IMG/VR virus record: IMGVR_UViG_3300046002_004363
Coordinates: 1 to 64,000 of that record
DNA from: a virus
DNA length: 64,000 nt
Strand: one strand, 5' to 3'
Shown here: piece by piece, positions 1 to 63,695 of the stretch
Position numbering within the stretch: position 1 is the first letter of the stretch
Layout of the letters: each line of letters begins with the position of its first letter
Notes under the pieces: generated by a model
What the model was told of the DNA's origin: nothing
The model's database searches: none
The model's input: the letters and a program-made list of their open reading frames with translations, nothing else
Made by a program: the position numbers and the translations under genes

Positions 1-1
1 T

Positions 2-85
2 TTTAATATTTCTTTAAAGAGGGTGGAAGAAAAAAGAAAAGAAAAAGAATTTAACGTAGTAACTTCATTCGGAGATGGAATGTAG
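2..85 (+). CDS. C-terminal end of a truncated-by-window small protein
   Basis: This is an open frame from the window edge to a TAG at 83-85, covering 27 codons. The visible part is strongly charged (Lys/Glu-rich) and ends in FGDGM. It stops 10 bases before the AAC of the first cassette-like site, as do the genes before the other sites, so it is probably the end of the preceding cassette gene. No function can be assigned from this fragment. Confidence 0.4.
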   Translation, partial: FNISLKRVEEKRKEKEFNVVTSFGDGM

Positions 86-95
86 TATTACTGCT

Positions 96-224
96 AACGT
101 TCCGCATATTAACGATGTGGCGTATTTAAACACATACGAAAACAAATAAACAACAAACAAAAAGTGAGCCGACACATTTCGGATTAACCAAAGCCAAGCC
201 ATATCGGTAATATGCTGTTATATG
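96..224 (+). repeat. Cassette-type recombination site A (attC-like)
   Basis: The left arm GCATATTAACGATGTGGC (104-121) and right arm GCCATATCGGTAATATGC (198-215) are inverted copies matching at 16 of 18 positions, 76 bases apart. The outer flanks are AACGTT on the left and TGTTATATG on the right. Integron attC sites have the same plan: long imperfect inverted arms bounded by AAC and GTT boxes. Similar sites recur at 2858-2984, 63051-63177 and 63573-63683. The link to integrons is inferred from shape only. Confidence 0.55.
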
Positions 225-247
225 ATGGCTTTATATTCACAAATATT

Positions 248-514
248 ATGAAAAATTTTAAACAATTCAGAAGAAGTCAAATTGCAGAAATGAGAGAAGT
301 AACAGAAGTAGATATTAATGTGTTTAATAATCACGGATTTATTCATATATCTGAATACCCATTTGGTTATAATGTATCTATTTCTGATGCAGATAAAAAC
401 AACGGAAGTCCTAAAATTGGAGATATGATTTCAAGAAACCCTAAAAACCACTTTGACCAGTGGTTAGTTTCTGAACAATATTTCAAAGATAACTTTGAGC
501 AGTTAGTTGAGTAA
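248..514 (+). CDS. Small hypothetical protein, cassette paralogue 1
   Basis: The protein has 88 residues from the ATG at 248, which follows the A-rich leader typical here; an upstream in-frame start would lie inside recombination site A and is less likely. It is a paralogue of the gene at 2569: both share the N-terminal stretch QIAEMREVTE and an identical C-terminal half containing RNPKNHFDQWLVSEQYF. The last 108 bases of the gene are part of an exact 124-bp repeat. No known domain is recognised. The duplication fits movement as a cassette. Confidence 0.7.
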   Translation: MKNFKQFRRSQIAEMREVTEVDINVFNNHGFIHISEYPFGYNVSISDADKNNGSPKIGDMISRNPKNHFDQWLVSEQYFKDNFEQLVE

Positions 515-530
515 GCTATTATATAACGTT
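407..530 (+). repeat. 124-bp exact direct repeat, copy 1
   Basis: This stretch is identical to 2740-2863. It covers the 3' part of the gene at 248, its stop codon and the intergenic AACGTT. The two copies diverge immediately after AACGTT, where the cassette-like inverted arms begin, so one repeat boundary coincides with the proposed recombination-site box. Confidence 0.9.
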
Positions 531-660
531 TGCCCGCTATAATTTCAGCGTGGTGTGACACACAATAGCCTTTCGATTAAGCAAAAAGAAAACAAGAGTA
601 CAAAATGAACATTGAATTAAACCTTATGCCACAATTGAATAAACACGCTGTTGTGCGATG
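525..660 (+). repeat. Cassette-type recombination site B (degenerate)
   Basis: This site runs from AAC at 525-527 to GTTG at 650-653 (CTGTTGTGCGATGG, like CTGTTATATGATGG of site A). Only a short pair of arms is visible: CAGCGTG at 546-552 against CACGCTG at 644-650. It holds the same position as the clearer sites, after a gene stop and just before the next start (680). The weak arms make it the least certain site. Confidence 0.3.
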
Positions 661-679
661 GTGCTTTTAAATATAAATT

Positions 680-793
680 ATGTTAGGACAAAGAGTATAT
701 TTTGATTATGGCTTTGGCTCACGAGGATTTGGAACTTATGTTTATTGTGCAAAAACTCACAAAGTATTAATGTTTTTTAAAGATGAAAATTAA
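680..793 (+). CDS. Small hypothetical protein (37 aa)
   Basis: The ORF runs from ATG at 680 to TAA at 791-793 and starts about 30 bases after the right end of recombination site B. The product is rich in Gly, Tyr and Phe (FDYGFGSRGFGTYVY). It resembles no family I recognise. The A-rich TTATG start context matches its neighbours, and cassette genes after sites A and C start at the same distance, which supports it as a real gene. Confidence 0.45.
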   Translation: MLGQRVYFDYGFGSRGFGTYVYCAKTHKVLMFFKDEN

Positions 794-831
794 AACCCGA
801 TTGAAAGGTAAAATGCTATAAATATTATGGA
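792..831 (+). repeat. Conserved leader repeat, copy 1
   Basis: AAAACCCGATTGAAAGG followed by AAATGCTATAAATATTATGG is nearly the same as 2534-2573. In both places the repeat ends on the start codon of a small gene (827 and 2569). The genes behind the two copies are unrelated, so the leader itself is the conserved unit. Its role is unknown; it could be an expression leader or a recombination tract. Confidence 0.6.
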
Positions 832-1066
832 ATTAAAAAGAGAATTATCGTTAGGAGAAAAAAGATTGAGAATTAATTTTGATGACATCTTGACCAATGA
901 ATGTAGTGAGCATTTAAAGTTGAAATATGAACTTGCAAAAGTCATAAATAGAATTGATGCTCTTGAACAAAATGGAAGTGAACACGGAAGATTGAAATCA
1001 TTAGCAATGACAGATATTGAAAATGCTTCAATGTGGATTACAAAAGCTTTTACTCACAAGATTTAA
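827..1066 (+). CDS. Small hypothetical protein
   Basis: The product has 79 residues and is charged and mostly helical by composition (MELKRELSLGEKRLRINF start). It ends with an aromatic, basic tail (ITKAFTHKI). It resembles a recurrent type of small early phage protein in Bacteroidota phages with a helical core around DALEQNGSEHGRLKSLA. The start is set by the conserved leader repeat that ends at this ATG. The function is unknown. Confidence 0.65.
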   Translation: MELKRELSLGEKRLRINFDDILTNECSEHLKLKYELAKVINRIDALEQNGSEHGRLKSLAMTDIENASMWITKAFTHKI

Positions 1067-1080
1067 TTTGTTCTTTACAA

Positions 1081-1155
1081 ATGGTTGGCGAATTATCAAA
1101 AATTCCGACTACAAAACAATTATTAGAAATCTTCAAAAAAGAAAAACAACTATGA
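1081..1155 (+). CDS. Possible 24-aa leader peptide
   Basis: ATG at 1081 to TGA at 1153-1155, overlapping the next start as ATGA at 1152. The peptide (MVGELSKIPTTKQLLEIFKKE and so on) is amphipathic and basic. The ATGA overlap is typical of translational coupling. It is very short, so it may be non-functional. Confidence 0.35.
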   Translation: MVGELSKIPTTKQLLEIFKKEKQL

Positions 1156-1385
1156 AACAAACAGCAATAGAATTTTTAATTAAACAATTAGAAATTCTTA
1201 ATTTAATAAAAGAGGGAGATATAGAAAACGAACTTTTTAGGCAAATTGAATTAGAAGCCAAAGAAATGGAAAAACAACAGATTATAGATTCAAATATTTC
1301 GGGTATGGAATTTATAGCAGTAGACCCAAACAAATACAATGAAGATGCTGAAAAATATTACAACGAAACTTTTAAAAACAGATAA
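1152..1385 (+). CDS. Small conserved early protein, MKQTA family
   Basis: The protein has 77 residues from the ATG at 1152; the reading frame is open upstream but without coding character. It is related to the gene at 63696: both begin MKQ(Q)TA.E.L..QL, have an acidic helical middle ending in a QII motif, and finish with a Tyr-Tyr.(E/Q)TFK tail. This family is frequent in Bacteroidota phages. No function is known. Paralogues at both ends of the window suggest a shared accessory gene pool. Confidence 0.7.
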   Translation: MKQTAIEFLIKQLEILNLIKEGDIENELFRQIELEAKEMEKQQIIDSNISGMEFIAVDPNKYNEDAEKYYNETFKNR

Positions 1386-1428
1386 TATTTATGGAATAGT
1401 GGTAATGGAAAAATATTAAATTAAAAAA

Positions 1429-1686
1429 ATGTCGCATAAAAAAATGTCAGAAAGAAAATTAGAATTAGATAATATAGTGGATATTTTATCCAAAATAAAA
1501 GATGATGATTTTTATTTTAAAGCTTATGCAAAAGATATAATTAATAGTTATATTAAGCAAGAATTTAAAAAAGCTTATAGTATTGAGGAAGTAATAGATA
1601 TTTTAGAAATATTTCGTTATGATATTGAACAAGGAAATGATTCGGAAAATATTCAAGAATGGTTTAAAAAATACATAAAACAATAA
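1429..1686 (+). CDS. Small acidic helical protein
   Basis: The product has 85 residues and is predicted to be all-helical from its heptad-like pattern (IVDILSKIKDDDFYF, EEVIDILEIF). It ends in IQEWFKKYIKQ, similar to the WFEEFKKK end of the protein at 62136. Another in-frame Met (M6) could be the start. There is no recognised domain. It lies in a row of similar-sized genes with very short spacers. Confidence 0.6.
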   Translation: MSHKKMSERKLELDNIVDILSKIKDDDFYFKAYAKDIINSYIKQEFKKAYSIEEVIDILEIFRYDIEQGNDSENIQEWFKKYIKQ

Positions 1687-1691
1687 TAAAA

Positions 1692-1907
1692 ATGAAAGTA
1701 GTACACAGTCCAAGAACAAAAAAAGCCGACAAAGTAGTTAATTTACTTTTTTATGGAGATTTTAATTGCACAACTGGTTTCGGTAATGTATCGAAACAAC
1801 TTATTAATAGTTGGAGCAAAAATAAAAATTTCAATATCACAATATTGGCAATTAATGATTCATCTGAAAAACCATATAATTACAAAAACAATTTACAAAT
1901 TTTTTAA
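1692..1907 (+). pseudogene. Truncated glycosyltransferase-like fragment
   Basis: The 71-residue frame carries a stretch typical of the N terminus of GT4-type glycosyltransferases: VVNLLFYGDF, TGFGNVSKQLI, then NFNITILAIN. Full-length family members have several hundred residues, and here the frame stops at TAA 1905-1907, just after the first Rossmann strands. There is no continuation in the other frames of the next 150 bases, which encode an unrelated small protein. It is probably a remnant of a host-derived or phage glycosyltransferase; a short functional protein is less likely. Confidence 0.5.
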
Positions 1908-1920
1908 AAACAAATAAGAT

Positions 1921-2070
1921 ATGATAAAAGATTTTATAAAATTTGTAATACTACATCGTTGGAATAAAATAAATGAATCACACGTTAGATTTGCTGAATT
2001 AAGTGAATTTAAACCAAATGGATTACATTTAAGACTTTATAATTATATTAAAAAAATTAATAACATTTAA
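1921..2070 (+). CDS. Small basic hypothetical protein (49 aa)
   Basis: The ORF starts with the recurrent stop-to-start spacer (AAATAAGATATG) also seen before 2084, 11122, 11873 and 62352. The product is basic and aromatic (MIKDFIKFVILHRWNKI). It has no recognised domain. Its spacing and start context are those of its neighbours, which supports it as a real gene. Confidence 0.5.
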   Translation: MIKDFIKFVILHRWNKINESHVRFAELSEFKPNGLHLRLYNYIKKINNI

Positions 2071-2083
2071 AAACAAATAAGAT

Positions 2084-2353
2084 ATGACAGCAATAGATAT
2101 TGAAAAGTTAAACCAACTTATATCAAGAACTGATATTAGTGGTAACGATAAGGTAAGGTGGCTTACAGACTTCATAGATGGTAGAGAATTTCAGCAACAA
2201 CAAGACAAGAAAATGTATAGCGAGGAAGAAGTAGATGTATTAGTAGATATGTTACAAAAATGCAAAGAATATTTTTTACTGAAAACTGATTCTAAAAGCG
2301 AAGAAAGAGCAGATGCAATAGGAGAAGTACTTAAACAATTTAAAAACAAATAA
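2084..2353 (+). CDS. Small early protein, YSEEEV family
   Basis: The product has 89 residues. It contains QQQQDKKMYSEEEVDVL, closely like KWQQEQDKNKYSEEEV in the protein at 62136. The family occurs widely as small uncharacterised proteins of Bacteroidota phages. It is preceded by AAATAAGATATG. The function is unknown, and the paralogue at the other end of the window suggests shuffling of small genes. Confidence 0.65.
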   Translation: MTAIDIEKLNQLISRTDISGNDKVRWLTDFIDGREFQQQQDKKMYSEEEVDVLVDMLQKCKEYFLLKTDSKSEERADAIGEVLKQFKNK

Positions 2354-2356
2354 TAT

Positions 2357-2524
2357 ATGAAAAATTTAACAGAAACACCAAATCCAGCTGATTTTATGAT
2401 GTTGGGAGAAAAAGCATTTGAAGAAAATGTACATGAAAAATTAAGAGAAACATTATCTCCAACAGAAAAACAAATGTGGATAAGTGGATATTTGTTTGCT
2501 TTAACTCAACAAAATAAAAGATAA
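2357..2524 (+). CDS. Small hypothetical protein (55 aa)
   Basis: The ORF runs from ATG at 2357 to TAA at 2522-2524, three bases after the previous stop. The sequence (MKNLTETPNPADFMMLGEKAF and onward) ends in WISGYLFALTQQNKR. It is helical and moderately hydrophobic near the C terminus. It is not assigned to a family. Tight packing supports a real gene. Confidence 0.5.
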   Translation: MKNLTETPNPADFMMLGEKAFEENVHEKLRETLSPTEKQMWISGYLFALTQQNKR

Positions 2525-2533
2525 AACAAAACA

Positions 2534-2575
2534 AAAACCCGATTGCAAGGGTAAATGCTACAAATATTATGGAAT
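2534..2575 (+). repeat. Conserved leader repeat, copy 2
   Basis: This is the second copy of the leader seen at 792-831 (AAAACCCGATTGCAAGG followed by TAAATGCTACAAATATTATGG), again ending at a start codon (2569). Differences from copy 1 are a few substitutions and a one-base shift. Confidence 0.6.
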
Positions 2576-2847
2576 ATTTTAAAAATTACAGAAGAACACA
2601 AATTGCAGAAATGAGAGAAGTAACAGAAAGCGATATTACAGACTTTCATAATATAGGTGCTATTGTAATACCATCTGATTTAGGAGATTGGAAACACCCA
2701 ATAAAAGTTAGTATTTCTGATGTAGATTTATTAAACGATAGTCCTAAAATTGGAGATATGATTTCAAGAAACCCTAAAAACCACTTTGACCAGTGGTTAG
2801 TTTCTGAACAATATTTCAAAGATAACTTTGAGCAGTTAGTTGAGTAA
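2569..2847 (+). CDS. Small hypothetical protein, cassette paralogue 2
   Basis: The product has 92 residues and is paralogous to the gene at 248. The N-terminal thirds are similar (YRRTQIAEMREVTE against FRRSQIAEMREVTE), the middle differs, and the last 35 residues are identical. The identical 3' half extends past the stop to the AACGTT of recombination site C. The start is fixed by the conserved leader repeat. The function is unknown. Confidence 0.7.
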   Translation: MEYFKNYRRTQIAEMREVTESDITDFHNIGAIVIPSDLGDWKHPIKVSISDVDLLNDSPKIGDMISRNPKNHFDQWLVSEQYFKDNFEQLVE

Positions 2848-2863
2848 GCTATTATATAACGTT
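2740..2863 (+). repeat. 124-bp exact direct repeat, copy 2
   Basis: Identical to 407-530. It ends with AACGTT, after which site C arms begin. Exact identity across coding and non-coding bases implies a recent duplication or gene conversion. Confidence 0.9.
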
Positions 2864-2984
2864 AAAGCATATATTTCAGTAGCGTAATAGTAAACAATAA
2901 AGTAAAAATTAAACAATTAATAACCAAACAAACACTAACACAACGAAAGCATATAGTAGCTATTGAATATATGCAGTGTTAGTA
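2858..2984 (+). repeat. Cassette-type recombination site C (attC-like)
   Basis: The left arm GCATATATTTCAGTAGC (2867-2883) faces the right arm GCTATTGAATATATGC (2959-2974), which are inverted copies with one or two mismatches and a gap. The flanks are AACGTT at 2858-2863 and GTGTTAG at 2976-2982. The central spacer is A-rich and non-coding. The site sits between the stop of the 2569 gene and the start at 3009, so it separates two gene units. Confidence 0.55.
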
Positions 2985-3008
2985 GCTGTTTTGAAATTCA
3001 CAAAAATT

Positions 3009-3326
3009 ATGAATACAGATGAATTTATTTTACCGATTATTTTAGTTTCTGTTTTGCTAATTATGATAGTAATAGGAAATATTAAAAAACGTGCTTTTTT
3101 GAAAGGATATAAAAAAGCGGAATTTGATATAACATCAAGTATGTTAGATAATGCAACTTGGTTTGGTAGCAGACCGATATTTTACAATACACTTTATTTA
3201 TTTGCTGTTAAATACAGAAAATACGGTTATGTTTCAGCAAGTAGATTTCGTGATGATATTTTAAGTATTGACCAAGAAAAAAGAGTTACAGATTTACCTA
3301 AAGAAGAACTTGAACGTATTGTTTAG
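3009..3326 (+). CDS. Small membrane-anchored hypothetical protein
   Basis: The ATG at 3009 gives 105 residues; an earlier start would lie inside the recombination site and is not preferred. A hydrophobic segment near residues 5-26 (IILVSVLLIMIVIGNI) is a likely membrane anchor with a cytoplasmic basic and aromatic domain after it. The leader TTTTGAAATTCACAAAAATTATG resembles that of the 248 gene. No family is recognised. Confidence 0.6.
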   Translation: MNTDEFILPIILVSVLLIMIVIGNIKKRAFLKGYKKAEFDITSSMLDNATWFGSRPIFYNTLYLFAVKYRKYGYVSASRFRDDILSIDQEKRVTDLPKEELERIV

Positions 3327-3389
3327 GAAACATAGCTACTAACTACTTGATTGACGAAACAACACCACACTGTAACTAACTGATTTACA

Positions 3390-3623
3390 ATGAAAAACTT
3401 TGAGATAGTAAGTATAAATTACAAAGTATATTGGAGGTTTAAAGAACACCATAATTATAAAGTAACGCTATGCAAGAAGATAATAAATTGTCAACGTGGA
3501 ATCATAATAAAACAATCAGTTAAGGGTGGTAGTATAGGTTATTACATATCAGGTAAATTCATAAAGAGGAAAGACTTAAATAAATACATAGAAGTTATAC
3601 CTAAAGAAATATATCCTTTTTAA
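3390..3623 (+). CDS. Small basic hypothetical protein
   Basis: The product has 77 residues and is rich in Lys, Ile and Tyr, with a pattern suggesting beta strands (VSINYKVYWRF, GGSIGYYISGKFI). It may bind nucleic acid through its basic surface, but no motif proves this. It is the last gene before the promoter of the replication operon. Confidence 0.6.
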   Translation: MKNFEIVSINYKVYWRFKEHHNYKVTLCKKIINCQRGIIIKQSVKGGSIGYYISGKFIKRKDLNKYIEVIPKEIYPF

Positions 3624-3645
3624 TTAGTTATTTGAATTTTATATC

Positions 3646-3653
3646 TATATTTG
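3646..3653 (+). promoter_or_regulatory. Bacteroidota-type promoter for the recombination operon
   Basis: The -7 box TATATTTG is followed by a purine start region and a leader of about 65 bases before the 3725 gene. The leader has a GC-rich patch (CCGACACGGAGAAGCCG). The -33 element is weak; TTTG at 3631 lies too close to be ideal. Confidence 0.6.
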
Positions 3654-3724
3654 CATATCTGAATATCCGACACGGAGAAGCCGAACACCGAACATAGTAG
3701 GCAATACATTTTAAATTATATTAT

Positions 3725-4021
3725 ATGGCTCAATTAATTGCAGTTAGCGTTGATCTAACAAAAATTGACAAAACAAGAATCGTTGAAGGTAAAAATGGAG
3801 GTAAGTACATAAACCTTACCATCTCTGTAAACGATGAGGAGGACCAATACGGAAACAATGTTTCTCTATGGCAGTCGCAAACAAAGGAAGAGCGTGAGGC
3901 TAAGGAGAATAGATTGTTCTTAGGTAATGGAAAGTCATTATGGAGTGATAGTGATAAAGGTGCAAAGACATCTAAGACTTCTAAGAAAGAAGAGGCTCAC
4001 AATGATTTACCTTTTAACTAA
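3725..4021 (+). CDS. Single-stranded DNA-binding protein-like
   Basis: The product has 98 residues. The first part has the strand pattern of a short OB-fold (AVSVDLTKIDK, GGKYINLTISVND), and the C terminus ends in an acidic and hydrophobic tip NDLPFN, like the DDxxPF tail by which SSB proteins recruit partners. It is shorter than bacterial SSB (about 110-180). Its position directly before an ERF annealing protein and an exonuclease supports a role in phage replication and recombination. Confidence is limited by the compact OB region. Confidence 0.6.
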   Translation: MAQLIAVSVDLTKIDKTRIVEGKNGGKYINLTISVNDEEDQYGNNVSLWQSQTKEEREAKENRLFLGNGKSLWSDSDKGAKTSKTSKKEEAHNDLPFN

Positions 4022-6206: not shown

Positions 6207-6444
6207 GGAGAAAATTATCAATAGAGTAAATGTAATATACAATACTCTAATCAATGCAAATAAAAAAGACTCTGTATCGGAGGATGTTAAGAGTATTAGA
6301 TTTGTGGTATTCAATGGTAAGACCACAGAAGAATCAATTAAGATTAAGAAAATGTTTGATGTAGTCTTCGAGAGAGAATTAAATAAGAGATTACAAGAAG
6401 CAAATAATGAATTAAGTATAATTAATAACCATATAAATAAATAA
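6193..6444 (+). CDS. Small helical hypothetical protein
   Basis: The product has 83 residues, charged and largely helical. It overlaps the preceding gene by 14 bases. No motif is recognised. Confidence 0.6.
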   Translation: METIKEKIINRVNVIYNTLINANKKDSVSEDVKSIRFVVFNGKTTEESIKIKKMFDVVFERELNKRLQEANNELSIINNHINK

Positions 6445-6448
6445 GATT

Positions 6449-6931
6449 ATGTATTTAGACGAAGCAATTTATAACATTGTAGTAAAGGAATCGAAAGAAG
6501 TTAAGGGAGAAGAAACTAAATCATTTGTTGGTAGAAAACTTAAGTGTATGGAAGACAATGCAAACTACACATTAGCTGTGAAAGGAGAGGTAGTTGAAGT
6601 GGTAAATCAAGATGGTAGTGTATTAACCATAAGCAAACCAATAAATGGTATTGATGGTATGAAGATAACTTCTTGTATGATTGGTAAGGAATTTAAACTA
6701 CTAAAGAAGAAAGGCAAGAAAGATACCATAGTTGAAGCAATTGTAGATAAATTTAAGAGCAGGAGTGATGTTGGTATTAAGAAATACAACACCACATTAG
6801 ATAGGGATGACCTTACAACAGAGCAGTGGATTGATCACGCAATTGAGGAAGGAATGGATATGATTCTATATTTAGAGAGATTAAAGAGAGATATAACTAA
6901 TATTAAGAAAGCTGTAGGAGATGGAAAATAA
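6449..6931 (+). CDS. Hypothetical protein with possible dUTPase/nucleotide-handling context
   Basis: The product has 160 residues. It has an N-terminal small beta-rich part (YTLAVKGEVVEVVNQDGSVLTIS, similar to a barrel strand series) and a C-terminal helical part ending LERLKRDITNIKKAVGDGK. No catalytic motif is visible. The call rests on composition only and no function is assigned. Confidence 0.6.
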   Translation: MYLDEAIYNIVVKESKEVKGEETKSFVGRKLKCMEDNANYTLAVKGEVVEVVNQDGSVLTISKPINGIDGMKITSCMIGKEFKLLKKKGKKDTIVEAIVDKFKSRSDVGIKKYNTTLDRDDLTTEQWIDHAIEEGMDMILYLERLKRDITNIKKAVGDGK

Positions 6932-23100: not shown

Positions 23101-25848
23101 TTCTTCTTCTCCTTTATCAATCAATGCTTGTTTTAATATACTTTTTGCTTCATCTTTGAATTTAGTCTGAACTTCTTCAGGTAATAAATCAAATGATGTT
23201 TTACTTCCATCTATTAACGCATCTCTGTTAGAAATCAACGAAGTGTATAATTCTTTTTGAGCATCTAATAATACCTTCTTTTCTTCTTTAGATAATTCTT
23301 TGTTCTCATTTATCTTATTAGCCTCTTGAAGCATATTATCTATTTCTGTATTTAAAGATTCAATAGCACTTACTCCTCCAGCATCTTTCTTAACCTTATC
23401 TATTATAGATAAATTGGTCTTATCTATATTTGATTGTATCTTAGAAATTCTATCGGAATATATAGCTTTAGTTTCTTCACTAACATTTTCACCAAGTTTT
23501 CCTTTCCAATAATACAACTCTTTTTCAAGTTCAGAAATCTTATTCTTGTCAGAAGTAGATGCAATTCTATTTATAACACCTCTACCCATAAGTGGGAATA
23601 TTTTAGATATTAATGTAAATGTTGTAGTATCTTTTATTACATCATCAATAGATTGACCTATATTCACGCCATCTTCATTAAGCACAAATACTCTTGATAA
23701 GTCCTGGAATATTTCAGCTAAAGACTCTTCCGTGTTCTCTTTTAATAAATCAGTACCAAGTTCTTTTGCCTCATCTAATCCTTTTTTGGTCCAGCTTTTC
23801 CAAAATATATTAGCAGTCTCTGGTTTTGAAAGTAGCGAGTTAAATGATTTGGATAACCTTAAGGCTGTTGGCAAATTACCTAATATATCAGCTCCTCCAG
23901 TAATACCTCCGTGAATCAACTTCTCAGCAAACGTATGTACTTTACCTATCTCTCCAGGCTCAACTAAACCTCTTTTAAACCTCTCTTCAAATTCTTCAGA
24001 TTCACCAACACCTCTACCAAAACCTGATGAAAAATAAACGGCAGATTGTCTTAATAAAGGCATAGCTACTTTTCCATATCCAGCAAGCATAGGTAAAGCC
24101 ATTTGACCTGTTTGAGTAGCTGTTACATCTGATACATAGTTTAGTAAACTACTTGCGTTAGTTACTTCCTTTACATCTTCTCTTACAAGTTCTTTTTGTT
24201 TCTCTAACTCTTTAGAAAAGTCGTAGTAATTATAATCTTTAAATACTTTATTGAATAGGTATGAGTCAGCTCCTTGTAAAGGAAGACCTATTTTACCTTT
24301 AAGTTTGTCTGATAATTCAGCTAATGTTTGAATTGTCTTAATAGTTCCATTCACTGTCTCTGCTGCCGATAAATAAACCTTATCTCCAAAAACACCATCG
24401 TAACTTCTTCTTGAGTTATCGAAGTCGTCATAAGCATCTTCTTTTCCAGTGAATGATTTATCAAATTTCTCTATGTAGTTAAGTTGAGTATCTAATGCAG
24501 AATTAAAGTCGTCTGCTTTAGATTTAATTTCTTCCTCTAACTTACTAACTATTTGCTTTAAATTAGGATTTATAGGGCTAGATGCAGCTTTATCTTTATT
24601 AGTTTCGTAGTAAGATATAAAATCTAAATCATCTTGATTCTTATCTTCTTTATTTAAAAGACCATTGTATATATCTGTAGCGTAATCAAAGTTACCAAAT
24701 ATTATCTGGTGGTTTAATACATTCTTAGTTTGCTTTAAGTCATTATAAAAACCATCTACCTTCTCTTTATTTAATTTTAATAGGTTTGAGTATTTTACAG
24801 ACTCTTTATTTAGTGTATTGTATTTTTCAAAATCATTTATTCTTAATGCATCTTGAATTTTAATAACTTCACCAGATTTAGGGTCTACATATTCTTCATT
24901 TTTTATTTCGTTTAAGAATTCAGCGTCTTGATTCTCAATATAATTATCCTTAGCTTCCTTTAATTTTATCTCTTTTGCTCTTTCTTTTAATCTCTCAGGA
25001 GTTACGCTTTTACCTTCTTTTTCAAACTCTTGCTTTGCTTTATTAAAGTATTTATCTACAGATGTTTTATCAGCTACAACTCCAGTGCTTCCTATTACTT
25101 CACTTGCTTTCTCCCCAATACCAAATGGCAAATTAGAAGCTAAGGCTAAGGCTGTATTCCAAGAGCCTCTTGCAAAATTTTCTACATTATTAAGAAATCC
25201 TTTACCAGCTAAAGCATCTTCGAAATCTATGCTTTCTTTGGTTAAGTAATTATCAAGACCTTCTTGTTGAGACGCTTTTCTTTGCTTTTGTTTTTCAGAC
25301 ACCACTACGCTTAATGGGGATACTGGAGCAACTTTAAAATCATTATCAACTTGAGCAGATACAGCTTCCGTAAATGTATTTGGTTTTACATTGAACTGAG
25401 AAGTTATATCTACTACAGGTTTTTTATCAATTACAGTAATTTCTTTCTTCTTCGCTTCTTTAAATTCTTTTGACTTTTGCTCTGTAAAAGACTGAACAGG
25501 TGCGCCAAATAAGGCTTTATTTTTCCCAACAGAAGATGCCGAAGCCCCAGTTTGAAGAGGTTTTCCTCCAACCGAAAAAGACTTTGCTTTCGTTTGTTGT
25601 ACAGGAGATACCGAAGGAGCTTCTTCTGAAGTACCAGTCGATTCTACTTTTTTTTTTGACGTTACGCTTGAGTATTTCTGTAAGAACGAGTCTTTATCTT
25701 TAGAGTAAAGACCATCTCTTTTTACAACCTCATAAACCTTGTCTTTATAAGGCTCATCATTAGACCATTTATTTTGAAATTCATCAAAGGATTTTGTGTA
25801 TTTCCCCTCTCTTACTAATACTTCGTATAATTTTTTTAATTCGTCCAT
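17128..25848 (-). CDS. Giant polyvalent internal virion (ejection) protein with kinase-like domain
   Basis: The product has 2,906 residues. Residues 1-65 hold two copies of a repeat (YEVLVREGKYTKSFDEFQ and YEVVKRDGLYSKDKDSFLQ). A kinase-like domain lies near 1000-1150, with EGSEHSVY and TVIKIGE as loop and Lys, and NIFAIDAGIVEI as a DFG-like end, as in the kinase of polyvalent phage proteins. A polyvalent-associated helical domain is near 1490-1580. Hydrophobic stretches near 580-630, 2300-2340 and 2510-2525 could enter a membrane. Polyvalent proteins of this kind are thought to be packaged and injected with the DNA. No RNA polymerase motif was seen. Confidence 0.75.
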   Translation of the reverse strand: MDELKKLYEVLVREGKYTKSFDEFQNKWSNDEPYKDKVYEVVKRDGLYSKDKDSFLQKYSSVTSKKKVESTGTSEEAPSVSPVQQTKAKSFSVGGKPLQTGASASSVGKNKALFGAPVQSFTEQKSKEFKEAKKKEITVIDKKPVVDITSQFNVKPNTFTEAVSAQVDNDFKVAPVSPLSVVVSEKQKQRKASQQEGLDNYLTKESIDFEDALAGKGFLNNVENFARGSWNTALALASNLPFGIGEKASEVIGSTGVVADKTSVDKYFNKAKQEFEKEGKSVTPERLKERAKEIKLKEAKDNYIENQDAEFLNEIKNEEYVDPKSGEVIKIQDALRINDFEKYNTLNKESVKYSNLLKLNKEKVDGFYNDLKQTKNVLNHQIIFGNFDYATDIYNGLLNKEDKNQDDLDFISYYETNKDKAASSPINPNLKQIVSKLEEEIKSKADDFNSALDTQLNYIEKFDKSFTGKEDAYDDFDNSRRSYDGVFGDKVYLSAAETVNGTIKTIQTLAELSDKLKGKIGLPLQGADSYLFNKVFKDYNYYDFSKELEKQKELVREDVKEVTNASSLLNYVSDVTATQTGQMALPMLAGYGKVAMPLLRQSAVYFSSGFGRGVGESEEFEERFKRGLVEPGEIGKVHTFAEKLIHGGITGGADILGNLPTALRLSKSFNSLLSKPETANIFWKSWTKKGLDEAKELGTDLLKENTEESLAEIFQDLSRVFVLNEDGVNIGQSIDDVIKDTTTFTLISKIFPLMGRGVINRIASTSDKNKISELEKELYYWKGKLGENVSEETKAIYSDRISKIQSNIDKTNLSIIDKVKKDAGGVSAIESLNTEIDNMLQEANKINENKELSKEEKKVLLDAQKELYTSLISNRDALIDGSKTSFDLLPEEVQTKFKDEAKSILKQALIDKGEEETLININAESINNKAKELYNQKIEEDAKRKQTDGQITSEEKPTTTAEEQTVSTTQQEGNVGLQEKINSVELDFNNNNLDKIEISLSRQGFIGDFLNDYEFLAEGSEHSVYISKDGKTVIKIGEPYGSNEGFMPRVKDAISISNLIGDGSLEVIGYYEQNGVKNPIYKQNYLKGETASQSEVSSYLESKGFLNIGNDNFVVNVDGKFLRISDTSDNFIKDDNGNIFAIDAGIVEISENDLTDSQKQEINKKNIKTQEEIVTPKDEDLEIQEDEVITIPEDEIEALRQEVTEQRIEGSLSDNIGQKGYIGSKEGMIKIDDTNRNTIVFETNNEIIELGKVNEDSNRPIASFGISKFPQEGVRTEAKQGKSIPVVKIDGKEYEFVSRARDKKGKAVVKLKEKETGLVRRISGEKAERILKDVSLQSDKKETKLNLQVAGKEVVGKTDKEIKAEEKKRNSEERRKRREEFQSKTLNELKEEEKKSEELLAKIEEEILDELVKKSKNKDLVKVGQRVFQVTKKQDGTFAVSQVNPEGKLVGIRDEATRNKAIGVFKAKKTKADKKDLQEAQNLIESFKKDERDRIEKLLDKAISALDLKGKGAFDASIALPAYAAKKFLQGIKVSYKAGKTLAEAINDGIKLVRDMGYISVSDFDLKEYALKQLSTKKEDKDAIQEQTTSEIPVQPETAVSEEVEQGEPEAKPEESTEQGEEKVKPLKEVKSQLQELFSAAKEAISITKNRAKEIDKLKKDLNQFVKSNLVGLDASDIMKSAYQKITSLVQNTTDANFEGQAEKINDIIDDLYLRRELRDEAILDKKIKEASKDTFYKDKTSGKVTKTKVTDEFKKKIEEAKKKFSKINNPTIADKTVFYLEVNKLLKDGIKARKAINEARDSKSRENANRLAIISLNKNKSIEPKKTVKLESTTIDKIFDKFSGGVIFNGKIYLNTKSGKSNFITDTEGLSRVSFNPISTSNVASSAETNRKGFKTAFNDIRRRYSTATFSADKFFEPLFSVEGAKEFLDKNWINRLKVYSEKLGRKVSEFRDVRDNFIKDVIGKDNFLNNNRILKSNTYDVIKTAVAIFKGGDKSSPLWSFVGRNEIQFSIDVNGKKVEGDYLGIIDELDLMIKKDPSIKKFKDQFVSRYIPFDKMKNEGVAALFNMLRQPEGLNKFLNSYSIDDAKAIISYVNENPGIREVADKSAKLFENIRDYVNPTLDKLGYDTLGEAKYVSKEDALKIKDDKSTRDLYEILDMVYPNGLPEKIPYYPLSAESLSGTNEGNVLEFFEDSENPNADYSLLFPSLFTRTSGGNLNLNDLSVTRSFDNIAKEAITLVQGSDIVSDVRNLYANEGNNVAMISAFGKSWNDKFKTKILNIVRDDAYNTSMGSKDLVGSASRFWVASRSTLRAAQLALNAFSAISQLTGIPIAYAKKGNLKYLKDTLKNLAKKETRNKEFNELKEAYNAIVNSKNYIERTNKRKDNAEVAAIQSINDNLGYRVSGALISDLLIFTTVFDQISVIALTPLYKGKYQVDSQTTTTENVDEFFAEEVNKTLQSNAPFYTGTAFYQKWALALGLGGYLQSPRQIMEMMSSDINSMLRKDGDYASKMKRIIAMSSFGLILPVMIKEALRGSDDEDEESKADKKTSILQFGNKIIDSILESMGFAGTLTSSIKNAALIKYSPDVMEMDVNPSDLKSQDVVMQALKGASPNISITMRGIDNVIDKKEIYTNTDQFLFALETGTGFAGAKLKKNIDYVVAVGSESYDYKDYWSLVTGKVTQDEFKQYEKELNTFRETLDKAVYPRLTPNKTLNTSFLNEKQMNELSKMGFEQKAEYIENIRLNLMRKSVVEQVEFLKKLGGMDKTKGYYKVRESKIKEELSEDAFKLLENKYYSGENLMTVEELTDKLDEFAKEENISEETSLSILKEAIKKANEKISEKFVIPAIKKLDKVSKGRDRAKYIYDNVGDLMEGDNIKYIEMMGDDFDEDTSDEYFEILRKKQNNK

Positions 25849-25864
25849 TTTTATGTGTAAATTA

Positions 25865-54136: not shown

Positions 54137-54892
54137 TTAATTGTAAAGTCTTAATTCAAAGTTTATTCTTCCACCATAAGACCAACCCACAGCAGGCGTT
54201 CCACTTACCTTATAACTAGCTAGTTCGATTGTATCAAAACCTAATAATGAAGGTGTAATTACGTGATATATACTGTTTTGAAGATAATTTGATGCGCTTA
54301 GATATGGATTTGTTAGTGTAATTAATTCAGATCCTAACACGATATTTATTTTTCCTGACACCCAGCTAACTGTTACAGTTGTGCCTAAAGTGTTCTCTAA
54401 AACATTTGTAGTTACAACAGATATAGATTCTGGGATTATTTGAGCAACATAAGACTTATAAGCTAATGCTTCTCCAGAAGCTCCTTGCGGTCCTGTTGGT
54501 CCTTGCGCACCTTGTGGTCCTGTAGCTCCTTGAGAGGCTAGTAAAGCCCATTTAGTTGTAGCCACCTCTGGATTAGAGTTACCTGTACCTGTGACTGCTG
54601 AAATACAAAACCAAGATGAACCATTAAAACCTACGGCATCATCTATTGCGTATGATGTATTTGTATTCCAAGCTCCTCTCCATTCTAATCCTGCTGGTCC
54701 TACTGGTCCTGGAGGTCCTGCTGGTCCTTGAACTCCTTGAGGTCCTTGAGATCCTGCTCCGATTGTTGCTGTAATATCCTCTAATGTAAAGTACTCTGAC
54801 TTTCTATCTACCTTAGTACCTTTCTTTTCGGTTAGGTCTGTAAACGCAGGGTCTACACCTAAAAACTTTGTTCCGCTTGGAATTGTTGCCAT
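54137..54892 (-). CDS. Virion appendage with collagen-like repeats and sugar-binding-like module
   Basis: The product has 251 residues. The shared anchor (ATIPSGTKFLGVDPAFTDLTEKK) is followed by collagen triplets (GPQGVQGPAGPPGPVGPAG near residues 49-67 and GATGPQGAQGPTGPQGASG near 122-140). Between them is WRGAWNTNTSYAIDDAVGFN with WFC, similar to chitin- or carbohydrate-binding CBM5/12-type modules. A beta C-terminal domain follows. Head or tail display for binding to host glycans or mucus is plausible. Confidence 0.65.
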   Translation of the reverse strand: MATIPSGTKFLGVDPAFTDLTEKKGTKVDRKSEYFTLEDITATIGAGSQGPQGVQGPAGPPGPVGPAGLEWRGAWNTNTSYAIDDAVGFNGSSWFCISAVTGTGNSNPEVATTKWALLASQGATGPQGAQGPTGPQGASGEALAYKSYVAQIIPESISVVTTNVLENTLGTTVTVSWVSGKINIVLGSELITLTNPYLSASNYLQNSIYHVITPSLLGFDTIELASYKVSGTPAVGWSYGGRINFELRLYN

Positions 54893-62540: not shown

Positions 62541-62708
62541 ATGAATAAGGTAGAAATTATTGCAGAATTAGATAAACTAATGTATATTGCAGAACAATTA
62601 GAGAATACTTTTTTAGTTGGTAGACTTGAGGCAATAAAGCAATCACTTATAAAGGATTGGAATGAGAGTGATGCTTACTATAAAATTATAAGTAATCAAT
62701 TGAAATAA
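62541..62708 (+). CDS. Small helical protein (55 aa)
   Basis: The frame codes for NKVEIIAELDKLMYIAEQLENTF and onward, with two helices. Its TAA (62706-62708) overlaps the AAC box of the next cassette-like site, as in other cassettes. It marks the end of the early operon. Confidence 0.5.
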   Translation: MNKVEIIAELDKLMYIAEQLENTFLVGRLEAIKQSLIKDWNESDAYYKIISNQLK

Positions 62709-62825
62709 CGGTTCTCGGCTTGGCGAAGTTGCAGAATGTTGAAATTAAACACTAAATATTACAGATTATGACTAAACATTCAGAAAATACCAAAAGTAGC
62801 AATAGCACAAAACCTGTGTTACAAT
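62707..62825 (+). repeat. Cassette-type recombination site F (degenerate)
   Basis: AAC at 62707-62709 is followed by CGGCTTGGCGAAGTTGC. A weaker facing arm, GCAATAGCACAAAACC at 62799-62814, precedes TGTGTTACAATC at 62815-62826. The arms pair only in part. Position, spacing (119 bases) and end boxes match the clear sites. Confidence 0.35.
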
Positions 62826-63040
62826 CAGTTTTTTTTGACTTTGATTATTGGAATAAATGCAATGCTTTATGGAATGTTTCTCCGCATCATTCTTTTGAAA
62901 ATTTAGTAGTCATTGAATATGTTGGAACAAGTAAAATGAGAATTTCTATTTGTGTTGAAAAAAATGAATTTGAATTAGGTTTAAATAGATTTTGGAGTGA
63001 GTTCAAACGTCAAAGTGAAAATAATGCGTTACGTAATTAA
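62768..63040 (+). CDS. Cassette protein reading out of the site (KPVLQSVF type)
   Basis: The product has 90 residues. Its first 20 residues are encoded by the right half of site F, giving TKPVLQSVFF; the protein at 63110 has LKPLLQAVF encoded by its own site. The rest has FDFDYWNKCNALWNVSPHHSFENLVVIEYVG and ends basic. It is not assigned to a family. The real start may be inside or before the site. Confidence 0.5.
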   Translation: MTKHSENTKSSNSTKPVLQSVFFDFDYWNKCNALWNVSPHHSFENLVVIEYVGTSKMRISICVEKNEFELGLNRFWSEFKRQSENNALRN

Positions 63041-63050
63041 AATTGATTGT

Positions 63051-63177
63051 AACGTATGTGGCTTTAAGCAGTTGCCAATAAAACTGCCTTAACTTTTGAT
63101 TTAAAACTAATGATTACAGATACAAAACAACCTTTAAATTTAGCCGAAAGTGGCAATTGCTTAAAGCCGCTGTTACA
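63051..63177 (+). repeat. Cassette-type recombination site D (attC-like)
   Basis: The arms GGCTTTAAGCAGTTGCCA (63060-63077) and TGGCAATTGCTTAAAGCC (63151-63168) are inverted copies with 17 of 18 matches. The flanks are AACGTATGT and GCTGTTACAAGC. A central spacer of 73 bases contains the start of the next frame. This is the clearest of the sites. Confidence 0.6.
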
Positions 63178-63562
63178 AGCAGTGTTTTTAGTTCCTTATG
63201 TTCCGTATTATTTACGAATATTTGAACCAATTTACAACGAAAAATATACACTTGTTGGAATTATTGAAAATGAACTTTATTGCAAAGAAACTGAAATAGA
63301 TGATTGTTTCTCTTTTGAAATAGACGAAAATACATTTCCAATATTAAGACCGTTGTCTGATTTTTACGATATAAATGCACCCGCATTTATTGATACAAAT
63401 TTTGATATTCCAACACAATTAGTTTTGGTTGATTTATGCTCTAAAAAACAACATTATTCAAGCGTAAGATATTCAGATATGCAAGAGTTTTTACGTGAAC
63501 ATATTGACATTTTCAATCTTATTGAACAAGATTTAGCCGTTTCAATCCACGATGTTGTGTAA
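63110..63562 (+). CDS. Cassette protein (150 aa) starting inside site D
   Basis: The product has 150 residues. Its first 22 residues derive from site D. The remainder has VPYVPYYLRIFEPIYNEKYTLVGIIENEL, an acidic middle (ETEIDDCFSFEID) and CSKKQHYSSVRYSDMQEFLREH. It has no recognised domain. The stop at 63560-63562 is ten bases before the AAC of site E, so gene plus site E form one cassette unit. Confidence 0.55.
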   Translation: MITDTKQPLNLAESGNCLKPLLQAVFLVPYVPYYLRIFEPIYNEKYTLVGIIENELYCKETEIDDCFSFEIDENTFPILRPLSDFYDINAPAFIDTNFDIPTQLVLVDLCSKKQHYSSVRYSDMQEFLREHIDIFNLIEQDLAVSIHDVV

Positions 63563-63572
63563 CATTGCTTAT

Positions 63573-63683
63573 AACGTTCCCACGCTTGGCATCAGTTGCC
63601 TAACGGAATAATCAAATGAATTAATAAAAAACAATAATGTCAAACGAAACACTAATAGGCGATTGTGCCAAACGTGTGTTAAA
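63573..63683 (+). repeat. Cassette-type recombination site E (attC-like)
   Basis: CACGCTTGGCATCAGTTGCC (63581-63600) faces GGCGATTGTGCCAAACGTG (63658-63676); the CACG/CGTG and TTGGCA/TGCCAA blocks pair with few mismatches. The flanks are AACGTTCC (63573-63580) and TGTTAAAA (63677-63684). The next gene starts 20 bases later. Confidence 0.55.
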
Positions 63684-63695
63684 AAACGTATTAAA

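Follow-up and report, generated by a model that had tools for sequence, protein, structure and literature searches.

At the left end of a 64,000-nt stretch of viral DNA (hereafter the window, positions 1 to 64,000 of record IMGVR_UViG_3300046002_004363), small genes stand between long imperfect hairpins, which raises the question of whether genes enter and leave this locus as discrete units and, if so, which enzyme moves them. A sequence-only reading of the window had proposed cassette arrays at both of its ends as a route for importing defence or host-takeover genes, an interpretation that our analysis supports in part. Our preferred answer, to which we give a probability of about 0.8, is that the locus would be a row of integron-type gene cassettes that lacks an integrase of its own and is carried by an Elemovirus-group Flavobacterium phage, with the enzyme most likely supplied in trans by the host.

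Sites A, B and C exist where the sequence-only reading had placed them (Table 1), and share one layout, in which about 6 nt separate TAAC from a long imperfect arm and, after a loop, about 3 nt separate the complementary arm from GTT(A). We aligned 17 sites (7 from phage and 10 from Flavobacterium chromosomes, with site B outside the training set), among which AAC and GTT are invariant, and built a covariance model from them. Paired bases filled 83.8% of arm cells in this alignment, compared to 61.8% in column shuffles and 31-48% with slid arms, and the covariation score was 0.534 versus 0.181 for the control. The model recovered A and C, the untrained and, as originally described, weaker site B, and the four right-end sites with the same boxes as A and C. 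Across 405 kb it gave no further match at E<=1 outside known arrays, bar three weak ones in Polaribacter phage P12002L, and a plain scan for AAC, arm and GTT ranked A and C above nearly all matches in Markov-shuffled sequence. Single-sequence DNA folding energies of the sites were not significant by themselves; the evidence for the sites is covariation and comparison.

Table 1. Features of the window, with site R3 of the adjoining part of the record.
Feature	Position	Strand	Basis or remark
N6/N4 DNA methyltransferase cassette gene, 3' end, truncated by record start	1..85	+	window 1-99 100% identical to L133 (reverse complement) 6417-6515, where the complete gene matches PF01555 (E 4.8e-24)
Site A, attC-like; TAAC 95-98, GTTA 217-220	88..227	+	covariance model, 93.7 bits, E 4e-17
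Cassette gene, 88 aa	248..514	+	homologue, 75% identical, sits as a cassette in the chromosomal array of Flavobacterium muglaense
Site B, degenerate attC-like; R' box GTTG; cassette ends mismatch	517..660 (about 525-660)	+	covariance model, 40.6 bits, E 1e-5
Acb2/Tad1 hairpin-domain protein, anti-CBASS/anti-Thoeris sponge family	827..1066	+	PF24729, E 7.9e-9
Series of small phage-type genes without sites between them	1152..2524	+	covariance model
Gene paralogous to 248-514 (proteins 73% identical)	2569..2847	+	comparison within window
Site C, attC-like; TAAC 2857-2860, GTTA 2978-2981	2850..2988	+	covariance model, 65.8 bits, E 4e-11
Last cassette gene, 105-aa putative membrane protein	3009..3326	+	
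Right boundary GCTACTAA/C, complementing the site C cassette start GTTAGTAGC	3335..3343	+	conserved phage DNA CTACTTGATTG.. next
Conserved right flank with genes of 77 aa and ~98 aa (COG4652 by record annotation in Elemovirus)	3390..4021	+	
Conserved left-flank phage gene MNKVEIIAELDKLMYI..	62541..62708	+	array begins exactly at stop codon, AA/C
Site R0, second genome's array	62699..62828	+	covariance model, 46.7 bits
Cassette gene, ATG within site R0 (MTKHSENTKSSNSTKPVLQ..)	62768..63040	+	
Site R1	63043..63182	+	covariance model, 114.2 bits
Cassette gene, ATG within site R1, phrog_10841	63110..63562	+	
Site R2	63565..63688	+	covariance model
Site R3 and its YopX gene	record 64210-64353 (site), beyond window	+	covariance model

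Judged by sequence, sites A, B and C are attC-like: complementary R''/R' and L''/L' boxes are combined with conserved AAC and GTT. The three left and four right sites in the record, with no integrase nearby, also have the composition of a CALIN (two or more attC sites that lack a neighbouring integrase). A phage-encoded integrase was dropped as a candidate, as PF00589 has no match anywhere in the 99.6-kb record. Some site arms encode a common leader peptide (..SNSTKPVL..) in frame with differing downstream genes, as at window position 62768 and at L003 1793, L103 8185, L105 3179 and L107 3688.

The relation between the two arrays was settled by self-alignment of the 99,577-base record (G000:C1), in which 3.7-34.9 kb aligns colinearly with 65.0-99.6 kb at 72-98% identity. 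Both copies have the gene order of the ~60-kb Flavobacterium phages of the genus Elemovirus (86.8% identity across 74% of a 7-kb query, with the same gene order around the locus). Because the first and last 35 kb are colinear and Elemovirus-like in gene order, the record consists of a pair of related Elemovirus-like genomes, each of ~62 kb, placed head to tail, a joining that is probably an assembly product. The left array (up to 3343) and the right array (from 62,709 to roughly 64,730) are thus a single locus in two relatives, situated just upstream of a conserved ~98-aa gene; the self-alignment rules out the earlier proposal that one phage carries arrays at both ends. Gene or array tallies per phage taken from this record come out doubled. 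Elsewhere in the window, positions 54473-54742 hold tandem 9-nt repeats (TCCTGCTGG-like) whose minus-strand reading would give collagen-like repeats.

A comparison of gene content in relatives, the check named beforehand, revealed changes that coincide with the boxes. A sister contig (G317) is 100% identical to window positions 1-99 and 92-1143 and carries in between one additional 219-bp cassette, composed of a stem (site) and a 58-aa ORF, the break falling inside 92-99 (TGCTAACG) with 8 bp of ambiguity. At the left edge, conserved phage DNA ends at GAAATAA/C (slash, cut) in the right array, in another contig (L006) and in G317, and three different stems come next; G317 also has the left-genome array starting at the end of the left-flank gene. 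At the right edge, the window and L006 finish different last genes at AA/CTACTTGATTG. Four array alleles share these phage boundaries, and cassettes are gained and lost as units cut at G/TT, AA/C being the same cut on the other strand. Record and sister contig are metagenome assemblies that join variants, and chimerism is possible; a shared stretch of 8 bp cannot easily create a cassette-exact indel by chimeric assembly. The sister contig leaves the window match at L133 (reverse complement) 7778, window position 1143, inside a repeated gene end (TTATTAGAAATC..AAAAAAGAAA), possibly another point of exchange or misassembly.

The start of a cassette (GTTA and what follows) complements that cassette's own end: across the 17 cassettes scored the mean was 11.7 of 15 nt, compared to 7.8 of 15 nt between the boxes within one site, and G.T recurs at position 11 of the 15-nt cassette-end arms. 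Two further cassettes, from the left array, were compared by eye. On the strength of this complementarity we read the unit, in phage direction, as C-stem-GTTA-gene-TAA, cut at AA/C. The canonical unit of a gene followed by attC was rejected in phage direction, where no stem follows the last gene and the first stem is variable, and is also contradicted by the indel, which carries the upstream stem. Among 30 phage sites, 11 contain the ATG with which the downstream gene begins.

Some exceptions and details add to the sequence-only description. The intervening genes are indeed small and mostly unrelated, but those preceding B and C are paralogues, with DNA 95% identical across the last 152 nt, AAC box included. 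Gene starts fall 16-55 nt past GTT or within the site itself. The cassette reading stands for the arrays, but site B does not bound a clean cassette, and the 2.2 kb and many genes of the B-C interval do not form a single clean one. The phages vB_FspP_elemoA-F (Elemovirus) share with our record the genome plan, the flanking genes and an Acb2/Tad1-family gene at the locus; in contrast, the covariance model found no attC-like sites at the locus in the Elemovirus isolates examined, and apparent ones from a loose scan lay below its threshold.

The cargo agrees with the proposed import of defence-related genes in including counter-defence-type genes: the left array carries the Acb2/Tad1 hairpin protein together with the 3' part of an N6/N4 methyltransferase gene, and the L006 array another methyltransferase; the right array carries a YopX protein. 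The orientation of the cargo differs sharply between phage and host. Across seven phage or viral-contig arrays the gene lies on the GTT side of the site in 22 cassettes and on the opposite side in none, whereas in Flavobacterium host arrays (L083 to L102, plus L040-L042 from the F. muglaense contig) the counts are 8 and 115. Since most genes in host arrays point in the opposite direction, the phage cassettes cannot simply be equated with the usual host type, and the contrast calls for explanation. One idea is that the phage locus sets array direction against transcription, so that only reversed cassettes would be expressed and kept.

The host arrays come with a candidate enzyme. On the F. muglaense contig, a 590-aa tyrosine recombinase is followed by at least eleven sites; this protein (L030:577-2349; positions 24092-25864 of its record) has an N-terminal extension of ~290 aa, a shorter ~350-aa type being commoner. 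At E<=1e-8 the covariance model had matches in 97 of the 121 Flavobacterium genomes and, in the wider Bacteroidota sample, in 78 of 198, both lower bounds because the filters were stringent. In some Bacteroidota genomes (G178, G231 and G305) lone sites are dispersed over the chromosome, not arrayed. The array lies 418-3733 bp downstream of the recombinase, always in the same relative orientation, in 16 of 20 loci fetched, with no tabulated site in the remaining four. XerC and XerD, situated away from arrays in the genomes checked, were discarded as the array enzyme on that ground. Directly after the recombinase, 15 of 17 loci have an attI, TATA..AG/TT (two have no attI match); past this AG, likewise in 15 of 17 loci, 10-12 of 13 nt agree with the end of the first cassette itself.

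The recombinase aligns to IntI4 (2a3v) over residues 11-182 and 248-319 alone, which means that the IntI-specific insertion (IntI 183-247) is missing. Its TIGR02249 score is 202-217 bits versus a cut-off of 265, and it falls outside the IntI family as defined by an additional domain, the patch, which has been used as a selection criterion for IntI (PMC2426708). In a 27-protein tree with a small IntI sample (three), the array recombinases cluster as a single clade that joins IntI, with XerC/D separate (97/94 support). Tied to the sites by position, this recombinase is most likely the enzyme that acts on them.

Could the same patterns arise without such an enzyme? Ordinary mosaicism, by homologous recombination between conserved sites through the phage's own ERF-type gene, would need no site-specific recombination. 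An ERF gene is present in Elemovirus relatives, the paralogous gene ends preceding B and C resemble homologous exchange, and site R3 recurs at 87-94% identity in four other, otherwise different viral contigs. In three of these contigs the match stops exactly at TAAC and GTTA, which counts for the cassette reading. We regard mosaicism as an unlikely account: just 8 bp are shared at the ends of the 219-bp indel, different stems meet the same phage boundary without homology, and cassette ends are complementary within the cassette, not across the site. The exact cassette-sized indel also speaks against hairpins with a regulatory role, in transcription or as RNA elements, that sit between small genes and travel as mere passengers. 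Their intergenic position and the start codons that some contribute to the next gene fit such a role, but the cassette-matched terminal repeats, the attI geometry and the recombinase linkage do not, and we give it almost no credence.

A site-specific enzyme of another kind is a separate matter. A classical patch-bearing IntI of some bacterium might mobilise the cassettes, making the Flavobacterium recombinase irrelevant. Qi et al. (2023, PMC9892861), who described attC clusters in phages, including a Polaribacter phage, and partly tested them with IntI1, report that IntI1 recombined one of two P12002L sites, and our model has weak matches in the P12002L methyltransferase region. However, Flavobacterium arrays adjoin the patch-less enzyme with attI in between, TIGR02249 gives no match in the F. 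muglaense genome that exceeds its curated cut-off, and a Vibrio record with a classical integron integrase gave no significant match to our site model, leaving a classical IntI very improbable as the source of mobility.

The system resembles integrons in its AAC..GTT boxes, its imperfect stem with R and L parts, the G/TT cut, the attI beside the recombinase at host loci, and arrays of similar sites with small-gene cassettes. It departs from them in a host recombinase that lacks the 183-247 insertion, sometimes has the N-terminal extension and is encoded in the same orientation as the array, and in 15-nt cassette-end arms with recurring G.T. Like the phage CALINs of PMC9892861, among which P12002L matches our model weakly, the present arrays are integrase-less attC clusters with methyltransferase cargo; allelic turnover at one locus, exact single-cassette polymorphism, the link to a flavobacterial platform and the systematic inversion of the gene relative to the site do not occur in the sections of that paper considered. 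IntegronFinder 2.0 reported one complete integron in Bacteroidetes proper, in Salinibacter, complete integrons being very rare in Bacteroidetes (PMC9024848), and in the open-licence literature, preprints excluded, we found no description of a flavobacterial patch-less platform. Phage attC clusters were already known; what looks new is the host platform with its patch-less enzyme, along with the inversion of the phage cassettes and the polymorphism for a single cassette.

Taken as a mechanism, the host-supplied cassette system would work as follows. Units made of a hairpin site and then a small gene would enter and exit at AA/C, that is, G/TT on the opposite strand and the classical integron cut. 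The enzyme would most likely come in trans from the host's own system, as an IntI-sister tyrosine recombinase without the IntI-specific insertion, and would recombine the folded single strand of the site into a resident GTT or attI-like point between two early phage genes, the phage flanks being like attI only in (T)AG/TT. Incoming genes would then be read along the phage operon direction, and selection may retain useful ones such as Acb2/Tad1 and methyltransferases. We also think it fairly probable that these findings describe a widespread and hitherto unrecognised Bacteroidota integron class, which would combine an IntI-sister recombinase lacking the patch with a dedicated attI and with attC-like sites that have 15-nt arms, and which Flavobacterium phages would exploit through inverted cassettes to exchange counter-defence genes singly; these inverted cassettes would then be a separate population, with the site upstream of the gene and sometimes giving its start codon.

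If the patch-less enzyme is the integrase, a large pool of cassettes escapes the usual detection rule, and there is an exception to the rule by which activity requires the extra domain. Because rows of the same kind, with their own integron-type recombinase, are widespread in Flavobacterium chromosomes, it appears that phages acquire counter-defence genes singly, as individual cassettes, and the phage array would be a concrete route for swapping single counter-defence genes at a fixed early locus.
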